In this document: positions 5,197 through 48,717 of the stretch, piece by piece | Layout: every line of letters begins with the position of its first letter | How positions within the stretch are numbered: the stretch's first letter is position 1 | Assembly (NCBI RefSeq): GCF_001592945.1 | Contig: NZ_LRPB01000003.1 | Location: forward strand, 1 to 64,000 | From: Roseivirga seohaensis | GTDB taxonomy: Bacteria; Bacteroidota; Bacteroidia; Cytophagales; Cyclobacteriaceae | DNA length: 64,000 bases | Direction: 5' to 3' | Made by a program: the position numbers and the translations under genes | The notes under the pieces: model-generated | What the model saw: only the letters and a program-made list of their open reading frames with translations | The model's database searches: none | What the model was told of the DNA's origin: nothing

Positions 5197-8115
5197 ATGC
5201 GTAAACAACTACTCACATTCTTAGCACTTTTTTGCTTTGCAAGTTTTGCTGTGGCCCAAGAAAAAAAGCCCATTACATGGCAAGATATTCCCACTTGGAA
5301 ATACATGCAAAGCAATAGCTTTCAAGTATCACCAGATGGAAAGTGGATTGCCTACGGAAACGTGGCTTTGGAAGCAGATGGCGAGCTCATCCTTCAAAAC
5401 ATTTCAGACCCAAGTGCTGAAAAAAAATCATTCCCCATCGGCTCAACAAACTTCCCCTCGATTTCTTTTAGTGATGACGGGAAATGGATTGCGTTTAAGG
5501 AGTATCCTACGTTTGCTGAAAGCAAAGCAAACAAAGGAGCGAAAGGAAAACCGCTTCGAGACAAACTTACTTTGATCGAACTAGGAACAGATGAGAAGAC
5601 AACTTTTGAAAACGTAATCAGCTTTTCTTTCAACGGCAAAGCAGCTTCGCATTTGGCCATCAACCTGGCTAAAGATGGAAATGGTGACGGCAAAGGTTCT
5701 GATCTTTTGATTCATCATTTAAAGACTGGAAAATCTCAAAACATGGGAAATGTCTCTGAATTCAGGTTCAATAAATCGGGTAGCCACTTGGCATATGTTG
5801 TTGATGCGGCCAATAAATCTGGCAACGGCCTTTATCTACTGAATTTGACTAACAACAGAACCCAAATCTTAGATTCAGACAAGGCATCTTACAAGTCTAT
5901 CAACTGGACTGAGAAAGGCGATGCTTTTGCTGCCTTAAAAATGGTTGAAGACAAAAAATACAAACAAGATCACGGTCAGGTAATTGGAGTGAAAAACCTA
6001 AACAACCCACAGGTTACCATTTATGATGCCCTGAAAGACAGCATTGGTTTTGACCAAGCGTACACCATAAGCGGTAGTCGAAGACCAATGTGGTCAGAAG
6101 ATTTAACCCGACTTTTTTACGGCATTCACCCACTGACACTAGCGAAAAAAGATGATAAAAAAGAGCTGGACAAAGATTCGGTGAAAATGGCAGAAGCAAA
6201 TGCCATGGAAAAAATCATGGCAGACACATCGATAAAGTCGATTGCCGATCTGCAAAAAGCAATTGCCAAACTGAACTCAGGAAAAGAAAAGAAAGAGGCA
6301 AATACTGATAAGCCAGATATGACCATATGGCATTGGAACGACAGCAAACTCCAGTCGCGACAGCAGGTTACGGCAAATCAGGACAAAAATTACAGCTTCT
6401 GGGCCATGTATAATGTGGCATCCGCTAAGCATACCGCTTTACAAGACAGCAGTATGAAAGATTTAAGTATTCTACCTAAACATCGTTATGCCTTGGGGTC
6501 AGATGCTCAAGCTTACGAACTAGACATTAACCTAGACGGGCAGCAATACAGCGACTTTTACATCGTAGACTTACTTACAGGTGAAAAAACTACGCTTTTC
6601 ACTAAATTCTATATTCCATCATATTCGTCATCACCAAGACCCTCAACGGACGGAACCAAACTGATGTATGGAAAAGATGGACATTATTTCGTCTACGATA
6701 TTGCTAGTAAATCAACAAAAAACATCACGGAAAATCTTCCAGTAACCTTTGTAGACGTTGAAGATGACCATAATGTAGAGAAGCCCATGGTGGGCGCCTT
6801 AGGCTGGAGTTCAGATGACAAGTATGTGTTACTTCGAGATGGTTGGGATATTTGGCAGGTGCCTTTAAATGGCAAATCATCATCTATCAACCTTACTCAA
6901 AATGGTAGAGCGAAAAAGATTCGCTACCAGTATAGGTTTGGACTTGATCCTGAGGAAAAAGGAATTGACCTTACTAAGCCAGTTTACGTCCGAACCTATG
7001 GTGAATGGAACAAAAAAAGTGGTATTTCCTTGCTTTCTCCAGCAAAAAAAGATGGCCTATCTTCTGGAGCTAAATCTCTAATCTGGGAAGACGCTAATGT
7101 TGGAGGCCTTAGAAAAGCTGAAAATGCTGATGCATTCTTCTTCAGTAAAGAGACCTTCAATATGCCAACAGAAATTTACATGACGGACGCCTCGCTTTCT
7201 TCACCAAAGCAGGTTACAGAAAACACACCTGATGCCGAAAAGTACCTTTGGTCAGACGGAACACAATTGGTGGATTATGTGACTGACAAAGGAGATTCAT
7301 TACAAGGAGCATTATTTCTTCCAGCCAATTATGTAGAAGGGAAAAAGTACCCAACCATAGTTTACTATTACGAGAAACTTTCACAAACCCGCCATAATTG
7401 GGCAAACCCAGGATTTAGCGGAACAGGCTGGAACCCTACTGTTTACACCAGCAATGGTTATGCTGTGTTTATTCCAGACATCGTTTACAAGCTAGACGAT
7501 CCGGGAATGTCAGCGGTTTGGGCAGTACTTCCTGCCGTAAAAGCCGCCATCGCTACGGGTGTGGTCGATGAAAATAATATCGGAATTCATGGTCATTCTT
7601 GGGGTGGTTATCAAACTTCTTTCCTCATTACACAAACAAACATGTTCAAGGCGGCTGCGGCAGGAGCACCTCTAACGAACATGATCTCGATGTATGATTT
7701 GATCTACTGGAACTCTGGCGGTGGAAACATGTCCATCTTTGAAGCTTCTCAAGGAAGGTTTAGTGGCGCCCCATGGGAAAACTGGGATTCTTACGAGCGA
7801 AATAGCCCAGTGTACCATGTGAAAAAAGTGAATACCCCACTCTTAATGCTTCACAACGACAAAGATGGTGCAGTAGATTTCACCCAAGGTATTGAGTATT
7901 ATTCAGCTTTAAGAAGGCTGAAAAAACCAGTGATACTTATGCAATACAAAGGCGAAAATCACGGACTGAGCAAGCTTGAAAACCGAAAGGATTATAGCGT
8001 TCGTATGATGGAATTCTTCAATCATCATTTAAAAGGCCATGCTGCCCCAGACTGGTTAGAAAAAGGAATTGACAACCTTAAATTAGATGAACATTTAGAG
8101 AAAAGAGGTTTCTAA
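5197..8115 (+). CDS. Secreted S9 family (prolyl oligopeptidase-like) serine peptidase
   Basis: A 972-residue exported peptidase: signal peptide (MRKQLLTFLALFCFASFAVAQ), a long N-terminal region with beta-propeller-like repeats (segments such as FQVSPDGKWIAYG and FSDDGKWIAF) and a C-terminal alpha/beta hydrolase. The triad is visible: Ser801 in GHSWGGY, Asp890 in HNDKDGAVD, and His922 in GENHGL. It probably degrades short or proline-containing peptides in the periplasm. A Rho-independent terminator follows at 8146-8178. The protein is longer than typical DPP4-like members because of the expanded propeller region, including a Lys/Glu-rich insert near residues 325-370. Confidence 0.88.
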   Translation: MRKQLLTFLALFCFASFAVAQEKKPITWQDIPTWKYMQSNSFQVSPDGKWIAYGNVALEADGELILQNISDPSAEKKSFPIGSTNFPSISFSDDGKWIAFKEYPTFAESKANKGAKGKPLRDKLTLIELGTDEKTTFENVISFSFNGKAASHLAINLAKDGNGDGKGSDLLIHHLKTGKSQNMGNVSEFRFNKSGSHLAYVVDAANKSGNGLYLLNLTNNRTQILDSDKASYKSINWTEKGDAFAALKMVEDKKYKQDHGQVIGVKNLNNPQVTIYDALKDSIGFDQAYTISGSRRPMWSEDLTRLFYGIHPLTLAKKDDKKELDKDSVKMAEANAMEKIMADTSIKSIADLQKAIAKLNSGKEKKEANTDKPDMTIWHWNDSKLQSRQQVTANQDKNYSFWAMYNVASAKHTALQDSSMKDLSILPKHRYALGSDAQAYELDINLDGQQYSDFYIVDLLTGEKTTLFTKFYIPSYSSSPRPSTDGTKLMYGKDGHYFVYDIASKSTKNITENLPVTFVDVEDDHNVEKPMVGALGWSSDDKYVLLRDGWDIWQVPLNGKSSSINLTQNGRAKKIRYQYRFGLDPEEKGIDLTKPVYVRTYGEWNKKSGISLLSPAKKDGLSSGAKSLIWEDANVGGLRKAENADAFFFSKETFNMPTEIYMTDASLSSPKQVTENTPDAEKYLWSDGTQLVDYVTDKGDSLQGALFLPANYVEGKKYPTIVYYYEKLSQTRHNWANPGFSGTGWNPTVYTSNGYAVFIPDIVYKLDDPGMSAVWAVLPAVKAAIATGVVDENNIGIHGHSWGGYQTSFLITQTNMFKAAAAGAPLTNMISMYDLIYWNSGGGNMSIFEASQGRFSGAPWENWDSYERNSPVYHVKKVNTPLLMLHNDKDGAVDFTQGIEYYSALRRLKKPVILMQYKGENHGLSKLENRKDYSVRMMEFFNHHLKGHAAPDWLEKGIDNLKLDEHLEKRGF

Positions 8116-8409
8116 ATTTAAAAACCAAATTGCTTTCAACATCACATCCCTCGATACACATCGGGGGATATTTTTTTTGCTAGTAGCCTATTTTTGAAGT
8201 GGCGAGTTTTAACTTAATACTAAAGGTAAGGCTAATACTATTTCTATTCTTTGGCAACCAGTTAAAATTAGAAGGAAGAATCCTTTCTAAAATTTAAAAA
8301 GCGAATTGCTTTTGGAAGTACTCTTCAAAAAAAATAAGCCTTACTAAATTCAAAAATTCTGAACTGCCAAAGAACTTGATTAGTTTAAGACTTAAATAAA
8401 AGAAGCATT
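8111..8409. repeat. Intergenic stretch with an imperfect direct repeat
   Basis: The stop-codon region of the S9 gene (from about 8109: TTTCTAAATTTAAAAA, then CAAATTGCTTT) recurs imperfectly from about 8284 (TTTCTAAAATTTAAAAA, then CGAATTGCTTT). Between and after the copies there is no open frame. TTCTTTGGCA (about 8247) and TGCCAAAGAA (about 8366) are inverted with respect to each other. The arrangement could be the scar of a lost tandem duplicate. Confidence 0.45.
8146..8178 (+). terminator. Rho-independent terminator of the S9 peptidase gene
   Basis: ATCCCTCGAT and ATCGGGGGAT form a 10-bp stem (one G-T pair) around a 4-nt loop, followed by eight T residues at 8171-8178, 30 nt past the stop codon. 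Confidence 0.85.
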
Positions 8410-9363
8410 ATGAACCAATTGATATTTAAAAACGGAGATAAATTAGACACCATCGGGCTGGGAACTTGGAAATCTGAACCAGGAGAGGTTTACAAGGCAG
8501 TAAGAGAAGCCATAAAACTAGGCTACCGACACATTGACTGCGCTTGGATTTACCAAAACGAAAAAGAAATAGGCAACGCTTTTGCCGATGCCTTTGCCGA
8601 AGGTGATGTAACCCGAGATGAGCTTTTTGTCACCTCAAAACTTTGGAATTCATTCCATGCTCCAGAAGATGTAATGCCTGCCTTAAAAGAATCGTTGAAC
8701 GCATTACAGCTCGAATATTTGGACTTGTATTTAATCCATTGGCCAATTGCTCATAAAAAAGAAGCCATCAATCCAAAAACTGCTGACGATTTTATTCCGA
8801 TTGACGAAATGCCCATTGCCGACACTTGGAAAGCCATGGAAGCTTGTGTAGAGGCGGGGTTAGTAAAACATATTGGCGTTTCAAACTTCAATATTCCTAA
8901 GTTGAAAAAGCTGATGGAAACCGCCATTATTCAGCCCGAAATGAACCAGGTGGAGTCGCACCCTTATTTGGCTCAGAATGACTTATTGCAATTCTGTATT
9001 GACAACAATATTCATTACACGGCCTACTCTCCGCTTGGGTCGCGCGATCGTGCCGAAGGTATGAAAGGGATTGACGAACCTGATATGTTTGAAAATGACG
9101 TGGTGAAGAAAATCGCTGAAGCCCACAATGTTCACCCCGCTCAAATTTTAATCAAATGGGCGGAAGCCAGAGGCACTGCCGTAATTCCAAAATCGGTAAA
9201 TCCAGAAAGGTTAAAGAAGAACTTGAAGTCGGCTAAAATTGAGCTGAGTAAGGAAGATATGGCCAAACTGAACAAGCTTGATAAAGGATACCGATTCCTA
9301 AACGGTAAGTTTTGGGAACGCGAAGGTGGAAGTTATACCGCAGATGGTCTTTGGAATAACTAG
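8410..9363 (+). CDS. Aldo/keto reductase
   Basis: A 317-residue NADPH-dependent aldo/keto reductase with an (alpha/beta)8 barrel. The catalytic tetrad is visible: Asp and Tyr in YRHIDCAWIYQNE, Lys in FVTSKLW, His in YLIHWP. The C-terminal cofactor motif IPKSVNPERLKKN binds the NADP phosphate. Length is normal. It resembles the aldose/aldehyde reductase branch (AKR3/AKR5 type), reducing aldehydes or sugars, but the substrate is unknown. The gene stands alone between two terminators. Confidence 0.88.
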   Translation: MNQLIFKNGDKLDTIGLGTWKSEPGEVYKAVREAIKLGYRHIDCAWIYQNEKEIGNAFADAFAEGDVTRDELFVTSKLWNSFHAPEDVMPALKESLNALQLEYLDLYLIHWPIAHKKEAINPKTADDFIPIDEMPIADTWKAMEACVEAGLVKHIGVSNFNIPKLKKLMETAIIQPEMNQVESHPYLAQNDLLQFCIDNNIHYTAYSPLGSRDRAEGMKGIDEPDMFENDVVKKIAEAHNVHPAQILIKWAEARGTAVIPKSVNPERLKKNLKSAKIELSKEDMAKLNKLDKGYRFLNGKFWEREGGSYTADGLWNN

Positions 9364-40502: not shown

Positions 40503-40533
40503 CAAATGTACGGGTAATATTTTAATTATAAAA
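40503..40533 (-). promoter_or_regulatory. rpsP operon promoter
   Basis: Minus-strand TACATTTG (plus 40503-40510) with TTTT 19 nt upstream (40530-40533). Downstream bases CAGTCC and then TTTTTGAGACG match the rplS promoter region. The leader is about 65 nt and can form GAGGA/TCCTC. Confidence 0.65.
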
Positions 40534-40571
40534 CGATTCAGAAAACTGACTTACTAAAGAATGTGTCTATC

Positions 40572-41011
40572 TTACTTCTCCAGCCACTCCCAATCAGAGC
40601 CGTCCTCGGCATTCATAAAAGTAACTTTCGCTTTTCCATCCTTACCAATTTCCAACAATGAGGGATACATATGAGAAAGCCCATGATCTAATGCGACAGA
40701 CAACTCTATAAAACCTATTCCAGAAGTATCTTCTTCGCCCAGCACTTTAAGCCTAACCCTTATGCCTTTTTTCGATCCATAATTGATGAAAACATATTTG
40801 ATTAAAGGAGAATTGTAACGTAACAACATAAAATCATAGGATTTCTTAACACAATTAGAACAGCCATTTTGAGGGATTACCAGCACAAATCTTCACTATT
40901 CAATTTTATCGAAGACTCCTCAAACAAAGGTTTATATTCGATTTCTAACCTATGCTTACAGCTCTGCAACCCAAGTAATATCACAAAACAACATATAATT
41001 ACTCTCTTCAT
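40572..41011 (-). pseudogene. Frameshifted CxxC lipoprotein, paralogue of the gene at 42218
   Basis: From the ATG at 41011 the frame encodes MKRVIICCFVILLGLQSCKH (lipobox LGLQSC) and runs to IKLNSE; the homologous body (LVIPQNGCSNCVKKSY ... AEDGSDWEWLEK) continues in the next frame from about 40890 to 40572. Alignment with the intact paralogue shows one missing base in the codon after that Glu (GAAGA/TTTGTG), so the reading frame is broken. Identity to the paralogue remains high even at DNA level in the last 100 bases, so the break is probably recent. Its ATG overlaps the stop of the upstream propeller gene (ATGA). A sequencing error or recoding are alternatives. Confidence 0.75.
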
Positions 41012-42204
41012 TTTTTCAAACCGATGAATGAAATCCCCATTATATCTTCCCCCTTAACACTATGCTGTGGCCCACTTAACCCGTCTGGTGTAACAAAAAT
41101 CCCCCTGTCCAGCAAAGCATGCCAACCATCTATGATTCCATCAGAAAGTTTGTTAAAGTCTGCATCAAAAACAGTTACTGAATACATAAAAGGATCGCGT
41201 ACCTCCTCTCCAGCTAACAGCCGCCTGTATGTATTCTTGCCTTTTTCAACCACCCCCACCCTGTAATACAAATCCTTATAAGGGTTATAAAGAACACCAT
41301 AATATCTCGCACTACTGAAACCTATTGCGTGTACATCAATGTTGTTAGGGTCGTAAACTATGGGGCGTTTTCTCTCAAGAAAATGAAACTCTCCAATCGC
41401 ATCACTCTTTCCATCTAATTTCTCTACAATGCCATTTCTAAGCCTGTAGACATTATGATCTAAGGGAAAACTTATAATAACATCTCCATTCTTAGTGTTT
41501 TGGGTTATGCGGCAATTGTAGAAGTAATAGAAATTATTCCAAACTGTACTACGCACATCAAAACCTTGGTAAGGCAAGGGAGCCTTTAGATATTCAAAGG
41601 TATCGTTACTCATATCTAATTTAATGATAGGAGCTACTTTGTTTTGTTCTTCTTTATCCGATATCTCCAAACCAATGTAAACAAAAGGAGGCCTAACTAC
41701 CAGTGCCCCAAAAAGGGTTGAGGCACTTGGGTAGCGCACCTTACTGTAATCATCACTTGAATAATGAAATGTATTGAGCTTTTTACCTTCTGAGTTCATA
41801 AGGAACATACTAAAGTTTGTCCCCCTGCTCAATATAAAAATAGAATCCTTATTGTGGTAGTGGAAATAGTAAGGGTCTGGCCCAATATCATCTGGCCCCT
41901 GTTTGGCAAACTGGGTTTGCCCTACGCCTTTACCTGTTTTATAATCGAAGTACTTAAGAGCATTTGTTATTCTGTTGTAGTAGACAATTGCCTTACGGTC
42001 TTCACAGTATTGAAACGAACTACCAAAAGAAGGAGGAGGTGCCGTTTCATTGTCCAAGTGAAGATCTAACTCACCTACCACTCCAACTTGAGCTTTCTGA
42101 GCACTCATTGACAAAGGACAAAAGAGCAATAGGCTGCTCAACAAAGCATGAACACAAAAAAGATATTTTTTCAACAAGCTCCCCATACTAGTTTTCATAT
42201 TCAA
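41008..42204 (-). CDS. Exported DUF4221-like beta-propeller protein, copy 1
   Basis: A 398-residue protein with an N-terminal signal segment (KKYLFCVHALLSSLLLFCPLSMSAQ). Shared with the two paralogues in this operon: LDLHLDNETAPPPSFGSSFQYCED, PYYFHYHNKDSIFILS, SSARYYGVLYNPYKDLYYRVG and a C-terminal GLSGPQHSVKGEDIMGI. The pattern is of the DUF4221/6-bladed propeller type found in Bacteroidota; my family call is moderate. No lipobox is visible after the signal (the preceding Cys lie in the hydrophobic core). Last intact gene of the operon; 13 nt after the CxxC lipoprotein and overlapping the broken copy that follows. Confidence 0.7.
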   Translation of the reverse strand: MNMKTSMGSLLKKYLFCVHALLSSLLLFCPLSMSAQKAQVGVVGELDLHLDNETAPPPSFGSSFQYCEDRKAIVYYNRITNALKYFDYKTGKGVGQTQFAKQGPDDIGPDPYYFHYHNKDSIFILSRGTNFSMFLMNSEGKKLNTFHYSSDDYSKVRYPSASTLFGALVVRPPFVYIGLEISDKEEQNKVAPIIKLDMSNDTFEYLKAPLPYQGFDVRSTVWNNFYYFYNCRITQNTKNGDVIISFPLDHNVYRLRNGIVEKLDGKSDAIGEFHFLERKRPIVYDPNNIDVHAIGFSSARYYGVLYNPYKDLYYRVGVVEKGKNTYRRLLAGEEVRDPFMYSVTVFDADFNKLSDGIIDGWHALLDRGIFVTPDGLSGPQHSVKGEDIMGISFIGLKK

Positions 42205-42217
42205 TTAAGCACAAAAG

Positions 42218-42697
42218 TTAAAATTTATAGGGTTCAGAATCCTGTTCCATCTGTTCCTCAAGCCACTGCCAATCAGAGCCGTCTTCTGCATTCATAAAAG
42301 TAACTTTTGCCTTACCATCCTTACCAATTTCTAACAAAGAGGGATACATTTGAGATAGCCCATTCTCTAAGGCTACACGCAAATCGATAAATCCAATTCG
42401 GGAAACATCCTCCTTGCCCAAAACATTCAACCTAACCTTGATTGCCTTCTGAGAGGAATAGTGCGTAAAAACATATTTTATTTTGGGGCTTTCATAGTTC
42501 TTTAAAAGAAAGCCATAAGATTTTTTCACACAAGTCGAGCAACCATTCTGAGGAATAACTAACATAAATTCTTCATTATCAACCTCAAAGCCAGCCTCTT
42601 TCAAAAAGAGTGAATAGTCCATTTCTGAATGCCTACTACAACTCAGACTTATTGTCAATAACCCAAACACTGTTAAAAATACTTTAATCCTTCTCAT
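42218..42697 (-). CDS. CxxC lipoprotein with thioredoxin-like features
   Basis: A 159-residue lipoprotein (lipobox TISLSC, Cys20). The body opens with FMLVIPQNGCSTCVKKSYGFLLKNY: a beta strand, then a CxxC at the start of a helix, as in thioredoxin-fold proteins. A later YPSLLEIGKDGKAKVTFMN fits a second strand pair. It lacks the usual cis-Pro context of an AhpC/TSA protein as far as I can see, so a redox role is only likely. Its start overlaps the end of propeller copy 2 by 14 bp, and propeller copy 1 follows after 13 nt. Confidence 0.65.
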   Translation of the reverse strand: MRRIKVFLTVFGLLTISLSCSRHSEMDYSLFLKEAGFEVDNEEFMLVIPQNGCSTCVKKSYGFLLKNYESPKIKYVFTHYSSQKAIKVRLNVLGKEDVSRIGFIDLRVALENGLSQMYPSLLEIGKDGKAKVTFMNAEDGSDWQWLEEQMEQDSEPYKF

Positions 42698-43847
42698 TAA
42701 ATTTCAATAACCCAATAGACATAATATCCTCCCCTTTACTATTTGGCAACAAAACCCATAAACCCTTAGGACTCACAAAAACACCCTTTTCGGGAGTCGC
42801 CTCTCTAGATGTAAATAAAACTTCTGTTTTTTTACTCAAGCCAGAATCAAATATCATCCATGAGTAAGAGTCAGGCACGTACTTTTTGGAATTTGATAAA
42901 TACTTTGATTCCGTTTTTGAAACATTATCCAATTTAACTAATCTATAAAAAAGCTTATTATATTGATCATAGAAAATCCCAAAGTATCTTGCGCTTCCGA
43001 ACACAATCTTTTTATATCCTACATCATTAACTTCAAATCTATTTTTGTCTCTAGAGAGCAATTCAAACCCCTTAACACTCTTGCTTTTTGCCTCTACTTC
43101 TTTTACTATCCCGTCTCTTAAAACATAGAGTTTTTGGCTCAGTGGGTAATTAATTACCATTTCATTATTATCAGCATTGAAGGCTAATCGAGACTCATAG
43201 AATTCATGCTGTCCTCCTTTGGGTATTCGTGACAAATCTAAATCCCTATATGCACCAGGTTCTTTTAAAAAACCATGTTCCTTGGTTACCATGTTATATT
43301 TTAAAACTGGTGCAACACTATTCCGTTCCTTCTGCTCTGAAATGTTGAATGATAAGAAAAAATGTTCCTTGTGGACAACAATGGCTCCTGAAACTCTAGT
43401 CAATCTTGGAAATGGTGTAAAACGATACCCATCTTTAGCTTCAAAATCGAAGGTATCAACTTTACCTCCTCTATCATTCACCAAAAAAAGTTTGGAATTC
43501 TGAAATTCTGAAAAGATAAAAATCGAATCCTTGTTATGATAATAAAAATAGTAAGGTTCACCGGGTATAGCCTCAGGGCCATAAGGTGAAAGTTTGGTTT
43601 CTTTTACAGTTTCTCCCGACTCTAAATCAAAGTACTTTATGGATTTAGTTATCCCATTCCAGTAAGCCAGTAAATCTGTATCATCACAATACTGAAACAC
43701 ACTACCAAAATACCATGGCATAGCAGTTTCATTATCAAGCTTTAGGTCTATAACTTTTCCAAATACCTCATTAGTAAATTGTACTGTTTGCCCTACACAA
43801 ACAGTACATACTTTAGCTATTAAGAAACACAAAACAAGCTTCCTCAT
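42684..43847 (-). CDS. Exported DUF4221-like beta-propeller protein, copy 2
   Basis: From MRKLVLCFLIAKVCTVCVGQ (43847) 387 residues. Family blocks: DLKLDNETAMPWYFGSVFQYCDD, PYYFYYHNKDSIFIFSE, FGSARYFGIFYDQYNKLFYRLV, SPKGLWVLLPNSKGEDIMSIGLL. Paralogue of the genes at 41008 and 44116, clearly closer to the former. An in-frame ATG at 43892 lies within the preceding small gene and is rejected. Start is 11 nt after that small gene; the 3' end overlaps the CxxC lipoprotein gene. Confidence 0.7.
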   Translation of the reverse strand: MRKLVLCFLIAKVCTVCVGQTVQFTNEVFGKVIDLKLDNETAMPWYFGSVFQYCDDTDLLAYWNGITKSIKYFDLESGETVKETKLSPYGPEAIPGEPYYFYYHNKDSIFIFSEFQNSKLFLVNDRGGKVDTFDFEAKDGYRFTPFPRLTRVSGAIVVHKEHFFLSFNISEQKERNSVAPVLKYNMVTKEHGFLKEPGAYRDLDLSRIPKGGQHEFYESRLAFNADNNEMVINYPLSQKLYVLRDGIVKEVEAKSKSVKGFELLSRDKNRFEVNDVGYKKIVFGSARYFGIFYDQYNKLFYRLVKLDNVSKTESKYLSNSKKYVPDSYSWMIFDSGLSKKTEVLFTSREATPEKGVFVSPKGLWVLLPNSKGEDIMSIGLLKFNEKD

Positions 43848-43858
43848 TATTAAAACAA

Positions 43859-44113
43859 TTAGTTTAATGGCTCTATTGAGTTTCCAGAACATTTCTGTTT
43901 ACCACTTTCATTGGGGGCTGACATATCTGCTGCGACACACCGAGAAATTAAAATATCATCTTCTCCTTCTGCTCCCTTTATTGTTATAGCATCACAGTAC
44001 CCCTGATACATATTTTCTTGTATCAGGCAATACTCTTCATCTGGAACAATATAGAAAGGCACAATAAACAAACTCACAAAGCTATATACTGTAATAAGTG
44101 TAATTTTTTTCAT
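43859..44113 (-). CDS. Small exported Cys-containing protein, 84 residues
   Basis: An N-terminal hydrophobic segment (KKITLITVYSFVSLFIVPFYIV) like a signal, then an acidic body with four Cys (EEYCLIQ, GYCDAIT, SRCVAA, QKCSGNSIEPLN). The C-terminal CSGNS is shared with the other small protein of the operon at 45301. I see no named family; size, signal and Cys content recall NVEALA-type peptides of Bacteroidota but the motif itself is absent. Fits tightly between propeller genes (2 nt after copy 3, 11 nt before copy 2). Confidence 0.6.
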   Translation of the reverse strand: MKKITLITVYSFVSLFIVPFYIVPDEEYCLIQENMYQGYCDAITIKGAEGEDDILISRCVAADMSAPNESGKQKCSGNSIEPLN

Positions 44114-44115
44114 AA

Positions 44116-45300
44116 TTATTTTTTTAATATTTTCATTAATTTAAATTCCATAACATCCTCATCCTCTCCTTGTGGGCGCAACAACCATAACCCTTCTTCA
44201 TTGACAAATAACCCCTGTTCAAAAAGAAGATTCTCATCAAAAAATTTATTCTCCGCAATTTTCTTGAAATCCTTATCAAAAGCCTGAATTGAGAACTCTT
44301 GATATATCTTTAACTCCTCACCCATATCTCTTCTTTTTGATAACTCCCTATTGAAAGGAAGCCTCCCAATACGATAATAAACATCCCGATATTGATCGTA
44401 AACCAACGCTGAATACCGTGGCATCAGCCTCACCTCGTCAATATATTTCCTTCTATTATTCTTATATTTCGTGAGCTCCGATTTTAAGAACAAAGGTTTT
44501 TCATAATAGACACTTTGCGCTCTAAAAATCAACCATTTATCACTATCTCTTTTTACCCACAAATCAGGTGATAGCGCGAAATCCAAAATCAACTCATTGG
44601 ATAGATCATTGTAAAAAACAGCAGTTGAACCAAATCTGTGATCAAAAGGAATTTTTCCTAAATCACTTTTAGCATACGGTTGTGGATTAGTAAAGTAATC
44701 TAATTTCCCCGAGGCTATATCCAGCTTCAAGTACGGTGCTCTTTTGAGCATCTTCTGAGGGGAATAAACACGTAACCCTAAGAATAAAGCATTCATCTGT
44801 TTAGAATAGCTAATACCTCCAGAAATTCGTTTTAACTCAACAGTATGAGCAAGCTCATCACTAGTTGAATTCAGTTCATAGTTTCTATATTTTTCCCCTT
44901 TGCTATTAAGAAGACTTAAACGCCCATTGTTCAAATTTGAGAATACAAAAATAGAATCCCTATTAACCCAATAAAACGAAACAGGCTCAGGACCAACAGA
45001 ATCCGGACCTTCTATGGATAATGGCACACTCAACACTATAGTACCTGATTTTACGTCAAATAATTTTATGCTGGCATCAATTTTATTTAAGTAAGCTACC
45101 GCATCTTCGGAAGACAAATACTGGAAACAACTCCCTGGAGCCCATGGATGTACAGTCCTTTCATCAAGTTCAAAAGTCATACTATCTCCCTTAATAACTT
45201 TAAATGGGAAATCAACATCCACCTCCCTTATGTACTGCCTTGCATCACCCACAAACTCACTGACAATTAACAAGAAGAGAATCAATAAATGTTTACACAT
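44116..45300 (-). CDS. Exported DUF4221-like beta-propeller protein, copy 3
   Basis: A 394-residue protein with signal MCKHLLILFLLIVSEFVGDA. Diverged paralogue: MTFELDERTVHPWAPGSCFQYLSS, PVSFYWVNRDSIFVFSN, MPRYSALVYDQYRDVYYRIG, NEEGLWLLRPQGEDEDVMEFKLM align with copies 1 and 2. The start codon abuts the stop codon of the preceding small gene with no gap. It is the least similar of the three and probably diverged first. Confidence 0.68.
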   Translation of the reverse strand: MCKHLLILFLLIVSEFVGDARQYIREVDVDFPFKVIKGDSMTFELDERTVHPWAPGSCFQYLSSEDAVAYLNKIDASIKLFDVKSGTIVLSVPLSIEGPDSVGPEPVSFYWVNRDSIFVFSNLNNGRLSLLNSKGEKYRNYELNSTSDELAHTVELKRISGGISYSKQMNALFLGLRVYSPQKMLKRAPYLKLDIASGKLDYFTNPQPYAKSDLGKIPFDHRFGSTAVFYNDLSNELILDFALSPDLWVKRDSDKWLIFRAQSVYYEKPLFLKSELTKYKNNRRKYIDEVRLMPRYSALVYDQYRDVYYRIGRLPFNRELSKRRDMGEELKIYQEFSIQAFDKDFKKIAENKFFDENLLFEQGLFVNEEGLWLLRPQGEDEDVMEFKLMKILKK

Positions 45301-45573
45301 TTAATTGTACATTTCTGGAAAAAAATACAAACTATTCCCTGAACACCTTGAATAAGCAAAATCTCCGCTTTCCCATTCGCATACAGCTAAATCTGTTGAT
45401 TCCCCATTATATTGTTCAGTTGTAATATTACAGTAGTAGTCATTAGGCACATCATTACCATTCATATCTTTCGCATTTGTAAGACACTTAGAGTAATAAT
45501 CCGGGACATACCTGAAAGCAAAAGAGCTAGCCAACAACAAGCCCATACCCATAATTAAAAATCTATTTTTCAT
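45301..45573 (-). CDS. Small exported Cys-containing protein, 90 residues
   Basis: MKNRFLIMGMGLLLASSFAFR is a good signal or membrane anchor; the rest (YVPDYYSKCLTN, YYCNITTEQY, LAVCEWESG, AYSRCSGNSLYFFPEMYN) has four Cys spaced much as in the protein at 43859. Both end in CSGNS plus a short tail. First gene of the operon, just downstream of its promoter (45604-45634). Candidates for the role are a secreted peptide, surface antigen or a substrate of the neighbouring CxxC lipoprotein; none is proven. Confidence 0.6.
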   Translation of the reverse strand: MKNRFLIMGMGLLLASSFAFRYVPDYYSKCLTNAKDMNGNDVPNDYYCNITTEQYNGESTDLAVCEWESGDFAYSRCSGNSLYFFPEMYN

Positions 45574-45603
45574 AATCATTCTTGATAAAAGTAAAACATG
45601 ATT

Positions 45604-45634
45604 TAAACCTAAATAGAAAATTTCGTAAATCAAA
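45604..45634 (-). promoter_or_regulatory. Promoter of the small-protein/propeller operon
   Basis: On the minus strand TTTG (plus 45631-45634), a 19-nt spacer and TAGGTTTA (plus 45604-45611, one mismatch in the last base) form a good Bacteroidota promoter. It would drive all seven genes down to 40572. Confidence 0.65.
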
Positions 45635-45907
45635 TTATTACATATTTTTTTTTATTTTGCACTTTATACACTTCATACGCCTTCTATAAGGTATTACCAT
45701 ACGTATTCTATATTCATTTAATATTTTAAAACTAAGAAGACTATAGTTGTTTTCAATACTTCACTATGAAAGACAGAGTGGCTAATCACTCTTATGTAGA
45801 AGATATTCTCCCACACAAACACAACCCTAAGCCACTAAATACGATTAAGAACAAAAACCTCATTTTGATATAGAAAAATAAATACATTTATATAACCGCA
45901 TAAACAG
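45635..45907. other. AT-rich intergenic DNA between divergent promoters
   Basis: About 270 bp with no open frame beyond short random ones. A small hairpin AGAGTG/CACTCT lies near 45775-45795, and several T runs and TATT-rich stretches are present. No further recognisable signal. Confidence 0.5.
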
Positions 45908-45939
45908 TTTTCAATAACTAAACTAAAGGTCTACCTTTG
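45908..45939 (+). promoter_or_regulatory. sucA operon promoter
   Basis: TTTT (45908-45911) as an approximate -33 box, 20 nt, and TACCTTTG (45932-45939) as an exact -7 box. It lies inside the long upstream open frame starting at TTG 45937, so the ATG at 45967 is taken as the sucA start. Confidence 0.62.
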
Positions 45940-45966
45940 GTACTCATAAGAGGCAAACACCTGTTC

Positions 45967-48717
45967 ATGGATAATTATTCTTATTTAAGCAATGCAGATC
46001 CTAAGGCTTTAGAAGCCCTTTATCAGCAATTCAAAAATGACCCCAACAGTATTGATGAGGGTTGGAAAAAATTTTTCGAAGGTTTTGAGTTCGCTCAAAC
46101 GGAGTATTCAATGCTACCAGATGGTCAGGCTTCGAGCACTGCTCAAACTACAACTGGTACTAATACCGTTTCTGACAAAGAGGTTCAGGTAAGAAACCTG
46201 ATCCATGCTTACAGAACTAGAGCGCACCTAAGGTCTAAAACCAACCCTGTTAGGGAAAGAAAAGATAGAAAACCAATTCTTGATTTGGCTGACTTCAACT
46301 TAAGTGAGTCAGACTTAGATACTCAATTCATCTCTGGTGAAGAGTTGGGAATTGGCAAAGCACCTTTAAGAAAAATCATTGAAACACTTAAATACATATA
46401 TGAAGGAACTGTCGGCTTCGAATACATGTATGTTCGTGATCCAGAGAAACTAAAGTGGCTTAGAGAGAAAATTGAAAAAGATGCGCTTTCATTTAAGCCG
46501 TCTCATGCCCAGCGCGAAAGAATTCTTAGCAAGCTTAACGAAGCCGTAGTTTTCGAAAACTTTCTTCACACCAAATACTTGGGCCAGAAAAGATTCTCTT
46601 TGGAAGGTGGTGAAACTACAATCGCTGCATTGGATGCTATTATTAATAAAGGTGCCGAACTTGGTGTTAAAGAAGTAATGATTGGAATGGCCCACCGTGG
46701 CCGTTTAAATGTTTTGGCTAATATTATGGGCAAAACCTATGAACAAATCTTTAGCGAATTTGAAGGCAACTCTACACCAGACCTTACTATGGGCGATGGT
46801 GACGTTAAATATCACATGGGATTTTCGAGCCAAATTACTGCGGTAAATGGCGAAAAAGTTGAACTTAAACTAGCACCTAACCCTTCTCACTTAGAAGCAG
46901 TAAACCCGGTGGTTGAAGGCTTTGTAAGGGCCAAAGGTGATGAGGAATACAATAGAGACCGCTCTAAAATACTACCAATCCTTATTCACGGTGATGCAGC
47001 CGTTGCAGCTCAAGGTATAGTATATGAGGTTACTCAAATGGGTAATCTTGAAGGCTACAATACAGGCGGAACTATCCACTTTGTAATTAATAACCAAGTT
47101 GGTTTTACTACCGACTTTGACGATGCTCGTTCAAGTATCTATTGTACTGATGTAGCAAAAATTATTGACGCACCTGTACTTCATGTTAATGGTGATGATC
47201 CAGAAGCGGTAGTGTTCTGCGTTCAGTTTGCTACTGAGTACAGACAAAAATTTGGTGAAGATATTTTCGTGGACATGGTTTGCTACCGTAGACACGGCCA
47301 CAACGAAAGCGATGAACCTAAGTTCACACAGCCTTCACTATATAATGTGATTTCAAAACACCCTAACCCACGCGAGGTTTACAATAAACAACTCATTGAA
47401 AAGGGAGAAATTGAAGCCGCTCTAGCTAAGAAATTAGACAAAGAATTTAGAGCATTGCTTCAAGATAGACTCAATTTGGTGAAGCAAAAGCCACTTCCGT
47501 ACATCTACCAACCTTTGGAAGAAGAATGGAGGAACTTGAGAAGATCTAAACCAGAGGATTTTGAACAGTCTCCAGAAACTGGAATTTCAAATGATACGCT
47601 CAAGAAAGTAGCGGACGCCTTAACTACTATTCCAAAAGGATTTAAGCCTTTAAAGCAAATCGAAAAGCAGCTAAAACAACGTAAGGACATGTTCTTCAAA
47701 GAGAAGTCTTTGAACTGGGCCGCTGGTGAACTTCTGGCTTACGGCTCGCTTCTATTGGATGGTAAGAAAGTACGTTTAACCGGTCAAGATGTGCAAAGAG
47801 GAACTTTTTCACACAGACACGCTGTATTGCATGATGCCAACACCAACGAAGCCTACAATAGCTTAAACCATCTTGGAGCAGATAACAAATTCGAGATTTA
47901 TAACTCTCTGCTTTCAGAATTTGGCGTAATGGGCTTTGAATTTGGCTATGCCATGGCAAACCCAAATGCTCTTACATTGTGGGAAGGCCAGTTCGGTGAT
48001 TTTGCCAACGGTGCCCAAGTAATGGTAGATCAGTTCATTTCATGTTCTGAAACCAAATGGCAACGCATGAATGGAATGGTACTTCTTTTACCACATGGTT
48101 ATGAAGGTCAAGGCCCAGAGCATTCAAACGCAAGACCTGAGCGTTACTTACAGTTGAGCGCTGAATACAACATGGTAGTGGCCAATATTACCACTCCGGC
48201 CAACTTCTTCCACGCATTGAGAAGACAGCTGACATGGGAATTCAGAAAACCATTGGTGGTGATGTCGCCTAAATCTTTATTGCGCCATCCTAAGGTAGTT
48301 TCACCGGTGGAAGATTTTACTTCAGGTCGTTTCCAAGAGGTAATTGGCGATGACTATGCAACTGCTAAATCTGTAAAACGTGTTCTTCTTTGTTCAGGAA
48401 AAATCTACTACGATTTGCTTGAGCGCCAAGAAGCAGACAAGCGTAAGGATGTGGCTATAGTGAGGGTTGAGCAAATTCAGCCATTCCCAACTAATCAAGT
48501 GAACGAAATCCTAAGCCAATATAAAGGTGCGGAAGTTTTCTGGGTACAAGAAGAGCCTGAAAACATGGGTTACTGGTCGTTTATATTAAGAGCCTATAAA
48601 GACAAAGTCCTTACATTAATATCTCGTAAAGCGAGTGCTTCACCTGCAACAGGCTACGCTAAAGTACACGCTGCCGAACAAGAAAAATTAGTCGATCAAG
48701 CTTTCGCAAAAAATTAA
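45967..48717 (+). CDS. sucA: 2-oxoglutarate dehydrogenase E1 component
   Basis: A 916-residue thiamine-diphosphate enzyme that decarboxylates 2-oxoglutarate and passes succinyl to the E2 lipoyl arm. The start MDNYSYLSNADPKALEALYQQFKNDP is the standard short Bacteroidota N-terminus. Key blocks: GMAHRGRLNVLANIMGK, HGDAAVAAQGIVYE (ThDP Mg motif GDxA...N region), NNQVGFTT and CYRRHGHNESDEP. The E2 gene follows after 6 nt, then E3. Confidence 0.95.
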   Translation: MDNYSYLSNADPKALEALYQQFKNDPNSIDEGWKKFFEGFEFAQTEYSMLPDGQASSTAQTTTGTNTVSDKEVQVRNLIHAYRTRAHLRSKTNPVRERKDRKPILDLADFNLSESDLDTQFISGEELGIGKAPLRKIIETLKYIYEGTVGFEYMYVRDPEKLKWLREKIEKDALSFKPSHAQRERILSKLNEAVVFENFLHTKYLGQKRFSLEGGETTIAALDAIINKGAELGVKEVMIGMAHRGRLNVLANIMGKTYEQIFSEFEGNSTPDLTMGDGDVKYHMGFSSQITAVNGEKVELKLAPNPSHLEAVNPVVEGFVRAKGDEEYNRDRSKILPILIHGDAAVAAQGIVYEVTQMGNLEGYNTGGTIHFVINNQVGFTTDFDDARSSIYCTDVAKIIDAPVLHVNGDDPEAVVFCVQFATEYRQKFGEDIFVDMVCYRRHGHNESDEPKFTQPSLYNVISKHPNPREVYNKQLIEKGEIEAALAKKLDKEFRALLQDRLNLVKQKPLPYIYQPLEEEWRNLRRSKPEDFEQSPETGISNDTLKKVADALTTIPKGFKPLKQIEKQLKQRKDMFFKEKSLNWAAGELLAYGSLLLDGKKVRLTGQDVQRGTFSHRHAVLHDANTNEAYNSLNHLGADNKFEIYNSLLSEFGVMGFEFGYAMANPNALTLWEGQFGDFANGAQVMVDQFISCSETKWQRMNGMVLLLPHGYEGQGPEHSNARPERYLQLSAEYNMVVANITTPANFFHALRRQLTWEFRKPLVVMSPKSLLRHPKVVSPVEDFTSGRFQEVIGDDYATAKSVKRVLLCSGKIYYDLLERQEADKRKDVAIVRVEQIQPFPTNQVNEILSQYKGAEVFWVQEEPENMGYWSFILRAYKDKVLTLISRKASASPATGYAKVHAAEQEKLVDQAFAKN

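Follow-up and report, generated by a model that had tools for sequence, protein, structure and literature searches.

Putatively exported cysteine peptides, DUF4221 propellers and CxxC lipoproteins form a recurring gene set in Roseivirga seohaensis and other Bacteroidota

Between rpsP and sucA of Roseivirga seohaensis lie seven genes that encode three kinds of product, namely small cysteine peptides, propellers of the family DUF4221, and lipoproteins with a CxxC motif. The genes are contained in a stretch of 64,000 nucleotides (positions 1 to 64,000 of contig NZ_LRPB01000003.1, assembly GCF_001592945.1), which was analysed as a whole and is referred to here as the window. Peptide, propeller and lipoprotein genes co-occur beyond chance. 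The reading that we prefer, with moderate confidence, is that they supply an exported disulfide peptide, a cognate DUF4221 propeller and a dedicated thiol-disulfide lipoprotein. Gene content, gene order, recurrence, co-divergence and the predicted folds of the propeller and the lipoprotein were computed, and from these we infer that the peptide would be exported, bound by the propeller and subject to redox chemistry before taking up its final role.

The three gene types recur together

An earlier note on this DNA, made from the sequence alone, had regarded the three gene types as one system, an idea to be given up if they were not found together elsewhere. They do occur together, and their order is kept in further families, orders and classes of the Bacteroidota. 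Among the loci chosen for DUF4221 alone, the window's own included, there are 87 DUF4221 open reading frames (ORFs), of which 26 have an exported small cysteine ORF upstream, 18 have a CxxC ORF downstream and 14 have both. The same loci served as a control; among their 319 other ORFs of at least 250 amino acids, 2 have such a peptide, 1 has a CxxC ORF and 0 have both. The set was extended to 124 unique DUF4221 genes, with a peptide at 49, a lipoprotein at 41 and both at 31. These comprise 106 genes from DUF4221-picked loci (a peptide at 36, a lipoprotein at 27, both at 20), 17 from lipoprotein-picked loci (12, 14 and 11, respectively) and one from genome G293 (G and L numbers are our labels for genomes and loci).

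The association was also approached from the lipoprotein. The CxxC model was derived from sequences encoded beside DUF4221, and counts that include its query rows (20 of 29 and 8 of 17 below) prove nothing alone. Across 59 relatives the profile gave 29 strong matches, 20 being its own rows. Six of the nine strong non-query matches, one of the nine being the broken gene of the window, lie directly downstream of a DUF4221 gene detected by Pfam, two lie downstream of divergent DUF4221 genes missed by the Pfam search, and one (G002:C3) adjoins DUF4221 in another order. A motif scan of named genomes returned 17 loci, 8 of them on the query rows' own contigs. At the nine new loci DUF4221 is directly upstream in 9/9, preceded by a peptide gene in 7/9 (in L203 the peptide is 190 nucleotides away). 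Hosts named among the motif-scan loci include Roseivirga, Algoriphagus, Cyclobacterium, Thermoflexibacter ruber, Parapedobacter koreensis and Fodinibius halophilus. Over all loci collected, 41 of 45 unique CxxC members directly follow DUF4221; the other four are two over-extended starts (L093, L186), a fragment (L177 5616-5852) and a real exception (L077 1357-1878).

Glycosyltransferase-like genes stand directly beside some of these triads, at L190 2883-4250 and 6465-7838 (Thermoflexibacter ruber) and at L205 6361-7749 (Cyclobacterium). The gene at L190 6465-7838 matches a macrolide glycosyltransferase model below its cut-off, and the other two were recognized by eye. The peptides of these triads may be glycosylated.

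Organization of the locus and its occurrence in relatives

The seven minus-strand genes occupy 40572-45633 and, by inspection of the ORFs and the gene map, nearly abut or overlap. Propeller copies are numbered here along transcription, the reverse of the numbering in the earlier note. Read in their coding direction, the genes begin with pep1 and propeller copy 1, continue with pep2, propeller copy 2 and the CxxC lipoprotein, and end with propeller copy 3 and a frameshifted CxxC lipoprotein:

45937-48717, plus strand: sucA, flanking gene
45301-45633, minus strand: pep1, small exported protein with four cysteines, likely ATG at 45573 (ORF; leader by eye)
44116-45300, minus strand: DUF4221 six-bladed propeller, copy 1 (PF13970, 90.9 bits; model compared with 3s9j)
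43859-44113, minus strand: pep2, small exported protein with four cysteines in the mature part (ORF; leader by eye)
42684-43892, minus strand: DUF4221 propeller, copy 2, likely ATG at 43847 (PF13970, 58.9 bits)
42218-42697, minus strand: CxxC thioredoxin-fold lipoprotein, overlapping copy 2 by 14 nucleotides (alignment, model)
41008-42204, minus strand: DUF4221 propeller, copy 3 (PF13970, 65.2 bits)
40572-41011, minus strand: CxxC lipoprotein gene broken by a frameshift into frames of 44 and 104 amino acids
39872-40435, minus strand: rpsP, flanking gene
~40526-45798, no strand: accessory block missing in G004 (comparison with its rpsP-sucA junction)

Gene order, strand, spacing, the broken last gene and the position between rpsP and sucA are as the earlier note had described them, and its export signals were seen again, by eye, as a signal-peptide-like N-terminal stretch on all intact products. 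The frameshift in the last gene could be a pseudogene mutation or a sequencing error. The "good promoter" that had been claimed gained no support from consensus scans: sigma-70-like sites were no more frequent than in shuffled sequence (21 versus 20.9), and TAnnTTTG, which we take to be the Bacteroidota promoter element, was not found on the minus strand of 45634-45936. Terminator-like sites on the minus strand include two within propeller copy 3 and one ahead of pep1, with 5 found overall versus 2.8 expected.

The rpsP-sucA junction is empty in G004, the nearest relative by rpsP, whose sucA is 99.4% identical. The cluster is not at this site in 12 other genus members (of 17 besides the window and G014), and 11 of these junctions are plain; the junction of L265 holds two unrelated genes. 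Counting the window and L067, the cluster is missing from 12 of 14 rpsP-sucA junctions in the genus, with five further genomes lying outside this count. Genome G014 (locus L067) carries a version of the cluster at the same site in another order. There, 7883-9067 is 83% identical to propeller copy 2, 6215-7381 is 75% identical to copy 3, and the broken lipoprotein gene has an intact relative in the same place (7378-7827). The first propeller of L067 is 30% identical to copy 1, and its first peptide is 44% identical to pep1 over the full length, by eye mostly in the leader, the mature part being different. The DNA upstream of pep1 also resembles L067.

Propellers and lipoproteins

What had been called DUF4221-like is DUF4221 proper, as all three copies exceed the Pfam gathering cut-off of 23.4 bits for PF13970 (90.9, 58.9 and 65.2 bits for copies 1, 2 and 3). 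The model of copy 1 has a predicted local distance difference test score (pLDDT) of 86.3 and superimposes on the solved DUF4221 protein 3s9j with Z 34.9 over 338 residues at a root-mean-square deviation of 2.7; the next structures are NHL propellers at Z ~19. A profile of the propeller alignment (A3) also retrieves 3s9j (E 1.5e-63). By this model and profile the DUF4221 copies are predicted to be six-bladed propellers as in 3s9j. A simple pattern found no lipobox in copies 1 and 3. DUF4221 was detected in 19 of 59 relatives, with up to 18 matches per genome, and across the phylum in 15 of 296 genomes, 13 of them above the cut-off. In other genera, tandem DUF4221 genes with mostly lipobox-like starts are also seen (L045, L171, L172, L176), with neither a peptide nor a CxxC partner by the criteria used.

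For the lipoprotein, the earlier label of thioredoxin-like gains support from both fold and sequence. The model (pLDDT 88.3) adopts a thioredoxin fold with the CxxC at a helix start, and the nearest structures are DsbE 3gl3 (Z 9.1) and ResA (Z 8.4), modest scores with a concordant motif. Residues C20 (the lipobox cysteine), C53, C56 and P119 are invariant in 20 of 20 rows of alignment A1, and P119 is probably the cis proline. Fold and motif together support a predicted membrane-anchored thiol-disulfide oxidoreductase type. Pfam scanning of the family gave weak mixed matches only (Thioredoxin_7 0.025 and Redoxin 0.072, one member each), the window lipoproteins themselves matched no family beyond chance level, and the lipoproteins form an unnamed family.

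The small cysteine peptides

Exactly four cysteines are present in 33 of 49 peptides and an even number in 44 of 49, the peptides having been called by a simple hydrophobicity and cysteine rule that misses some (for example L086) and may admit a few false ones. The mature part, taken to begin a set number of residues past the hydrophobic stretch, has a median length of 51 residues and a median net charge of -5, the charge being at or below zero in 44 of 49. Because the mature peptides are acidic, a cationic membrane-active peptide is disfavoured. Pfam and NCBIfam scans gave no match for pep1 and a single chance-level NCBIfam match for pep2 (E 0.12), and in the Pfam scan neither window peptide matched the NVEALA model PF14055. 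Across 38 aligned peptides (A4) only single weak family matches were obtained apart from one NVEALA match, the best of the others being ExtJ in one member (E 1e-4). The one NVEALA-matching member of the 38 is unnamed in the output, but A4 includes L169, itself an NVEALA hit.

Purely diversifying peptides were considered as a general rule and rejected, given that two closely related pairs whose propellers are conserved have mature peptides 81% and 93% identical. In the pair L179/L197, nonsynonymous divergence (dN) is approximately one twelfth of synonymous divergence (dS), which also counts against general diversification.

Co-divergence of the parts

Propeller and lipoprotein similarity are correlated (r 0.61, n=36), also within the genus (r 0.68, n=20), and none of 5000 permutations reaches either value. 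Propeller and mature peptide similarity are correlated at r 0.69 (n=49). In a less redundant set of 44 members this falls to 0.44, or 0.27 without the cysteines, again with 0 of 5000 permutations reaching each, whereas leader versus propeller gives r -0.06. In 19 of 49 cases the propeller and the mature peptide have the same nearest neighbour, compared with a permutation mean of 1.0 and maximum of 6. Judged from these sequence comparisons, the different behaviour of leader and mature part points to a possible specificity of peptide and propeller for one another.

NVEALA loci of Bacteroides-like genomes

Peptides of the NVEALA family were found in 33 of 60 genomes of the genus of G293, which we take to be Bacteroides and term Bacteroides-like. 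In 20 regions around NVEALA matches, 41 of 54 NVEALA-like ORFs, called by motif, have a propeller within 400 nucleotides downstream. The window peptides likewise sit directly before a propeller. Counting the three families only, within 4 kb, 24 of the 54 rows open with a propeller and then a CxxC lipoprotein, while signal peptidase I belongs to the row for 10 of the 54. Locus L238 (429-4582) encodes, in succession, NVEALA, DUF4221, a DUF1573 lipoprotein with CxxC, signal peptidase I, a transglutaminase-like lipoprotein and a Wzy_C membrane protein of O-antigen ligase type with tetratricopeptide repeats; the end of this operon is possibly a peptide-processing set. The NVEALA motif ends in A-L-A, similar to a signal peptidase site; the signal peptidase gene nearby would be in keeping with this.

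Several features connect these loci with those of Roseivirga type. In L251 an NVEALA-like peptide and DUF4221 are accompanied by a short CxxC lipoprotein of Roseivirga type (E 1e-24), and profile comparison relates the Bacteroides-like CxxC family to that of Roseivirga type (hhalign 95%, E 4e-8). A mature core is common to an NVEALA peptide (L236 236-472) and a peptide with an ordinary leader (L181 3563-3769), at E 3e-12 versus 1e-3 for the best of 20 shuffled controls. The L181 peptide is located just after a triad in G087.

In an iron study (PMC10434189), Bacteroides thetaiotaomicron BT0662, BT0663, BT0664 and BT0667 are given as O-antigen ligase family, hypothetical, six-bladed propeller and lepB, respectively. 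The signs listed there for these genes are opposite, the entries in what is presumably the P column lie at 0.11-0.44, and we conclude nothing on regulation.

Proposed function and alternatives

The operon would encode two precursors of small, acidic, Sec-exported peptides with four cysteines. Each peptide would pass the inner membrane, where signal peptidase would cut off the leader, and the mature peptide would be bound specifically by its own propeller. Outside the inner membrane the CxxC lipoprotein would exchange the disulfides of the peptide, whether making, reducing or reshuffling them, and the finished peptide would be held at the envelope or released. The products would thus physically act together, and the final role would most likely be peptide-based recognition, signalling or competition. 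It is possible, although we put this forward only tentatively, that a phylum-wide peptide-receptor system of Bacteroidota exists, in which exported disulfide peptides with a swappable recognition core, each matched to a receptor propeller and a thiol-disulfide enzyme of its own, would serve strain-specific recognition (signalling or kin competition), the gut NVEALA loci being a branch with its own signal peptidase.

Several observations weigh against the preferred reading. By the criteria used, 65 of the 124 DUF4221 genes have neither partner, and the propeller therefore also has a role without them. Nine weaker CxxC matches in the relatives (E 1e-7 to 7e-4), which may be other thioredoxins, include none beside DUF4221 (0/9), and the final lipoprotein gene of the operon is itself broken here. 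No mixed-disulfide site is apparent in the 49-row propeller alignment, in which only the lipobox column has cysteine in at least 12 rows. Linked inheritance alone can yield correlated divergence, and in the full set the leader too correlates at r 0.19, above every permutation, short leaders being a weak control that saturates. Finally, peptides can outpace propellers; for L057/L058 the proportion of nonsynonymous differences (pN) is 0.51 in the peptide versus 0.31 in the propeller, with dS saturated.

An accessory, shuffled locus, in which a similar leader is joined to a different mature peptide and propeller, and the multi-copy expansion of DUF4221 to as many as 18 matches in a genome would also be expected if the peptides were antibacterial, bacteriocin-like toxins and the propeller their carrier, surface anchor or immunity partner. 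We consider this unlikely, as the mature peptides are acidic, with the charges given above, and typical membrane-active bacteriocins are unlike them; moreover, the seven genes include neither a transporter nor a recognised immunity gene. A circumstantial link to toxins is that the gene for the secreted antibacterial ubiquitin of Bacteroides fragilis is located next to propeller genes, in a region that is variable (PMC5705921). However, the ubiquitin genes of L271 and L273 and the propeller-like genes there are encoded on opposite strands, no NVEALA motif is found in the vicinity of either ubiquitin gene, and a third ubiquitin genome (L272) has no tagged propeller-like gene nearby.

A redox or stress device, in which the lipoprotein would read the peptide as an expendable thiol substrate or as a sensor, with the propeller as scaffold, would account for the frequent presence of a cysteine peptide and a thioredoxin-fold lipoprotein in one operon (both at 31 of 124 DUF4221 genes). 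The mature sequence beyond the cysteines nevertheless co-diverges with the propeller, which would be superfluous for a generic thiol buffer, and we judge such a device improbable. The least probable alternative in our estimate, and a very improbable one, is that unrelated envelope genes merely travel together as an accessory cassette; the absence of the cluster from 12 of 14 junctions would fit, but the same order is found at unrelated loci across classes and, in Bacteroides-like genomes, with other propeller families.

As to the ubiquitin genes themselves, those at L271 8231-8542 and L273 9757-10068 have model-tagged propeller-like lipoprotein genes approximately 4-5 kb or more away, and in one Bacteroides-like genome the ubiquitin gene is near a mutL-like gene (by eye), as described for B. 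fragilis.

Significance and comparison with known systems

The exported-peptide reading makes a single, testable system out of three orphan families (DUF4221, the NVEALA-like peptides and an unnamed family of CxxC lipoproteins), which is present both in environmental Bacteroidota and in Bacteroides-like gut genomes. If the pairing of peptide and propeller is specific, it would represent a new means of recognition or competition among bacteria, which may operate in the human gut. Literature searches on DUF4221 and on NVEALA returned no papers under either name; family names combined with accessions gave only titles on Plasmodium or enzyme prediction, probably accession look-alikes; and broader searches of titles and abstract starts found no description of the three-gene set or of NVEALA loci.

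The lipoprotein is comparable to oxidoreductases of ResA/DsbE type in its thioredoxin fold, CxxC and N-terminal membrane anchor, but differs from them by its weak sequence-family matches and its location in a peptide-propeller operon. The sublancin and glycocin operons of Bacillus and relatives are alike in that a disulfide peptide is encoded with its own thiol-disulfide oxidoreductase, and the glycosyltransferase-like gene beside some Bacteroidota triads (L190 scanned, L205 by eye) extends the likeness. Glycocins use a dedicated leader and an ATP-binding cassette (ABC) transporter and are not known to have a propeller; no peptide ABC transporter of this type is present among the seven window genes by gene map and Pfam. 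For the bacteroidetocins we know of no propeller or thioredoxin partner. They are likewise small peptides of Bacteroidota, and are described as class IIa-like peptide toxins (PMC6671954). The NVEALA loci, in which PF14055 peptides accompany DUF4221, DUF5128 or TolB_like propellers, share with the window an exported small cysteine peptide directly before a six-bladed propeller, often then followed by a CxxC lipoprotein. They differ in that the window peptides have ordinary leaders and no PF14055 match, that the two Bacteroides-like lipoproteins scanned have an additional DUF1573 domain, and that the signal peptidase I, transglutaminase-like and Wzy_C genes belong to the NVEALA loci and are absent from the window operon.

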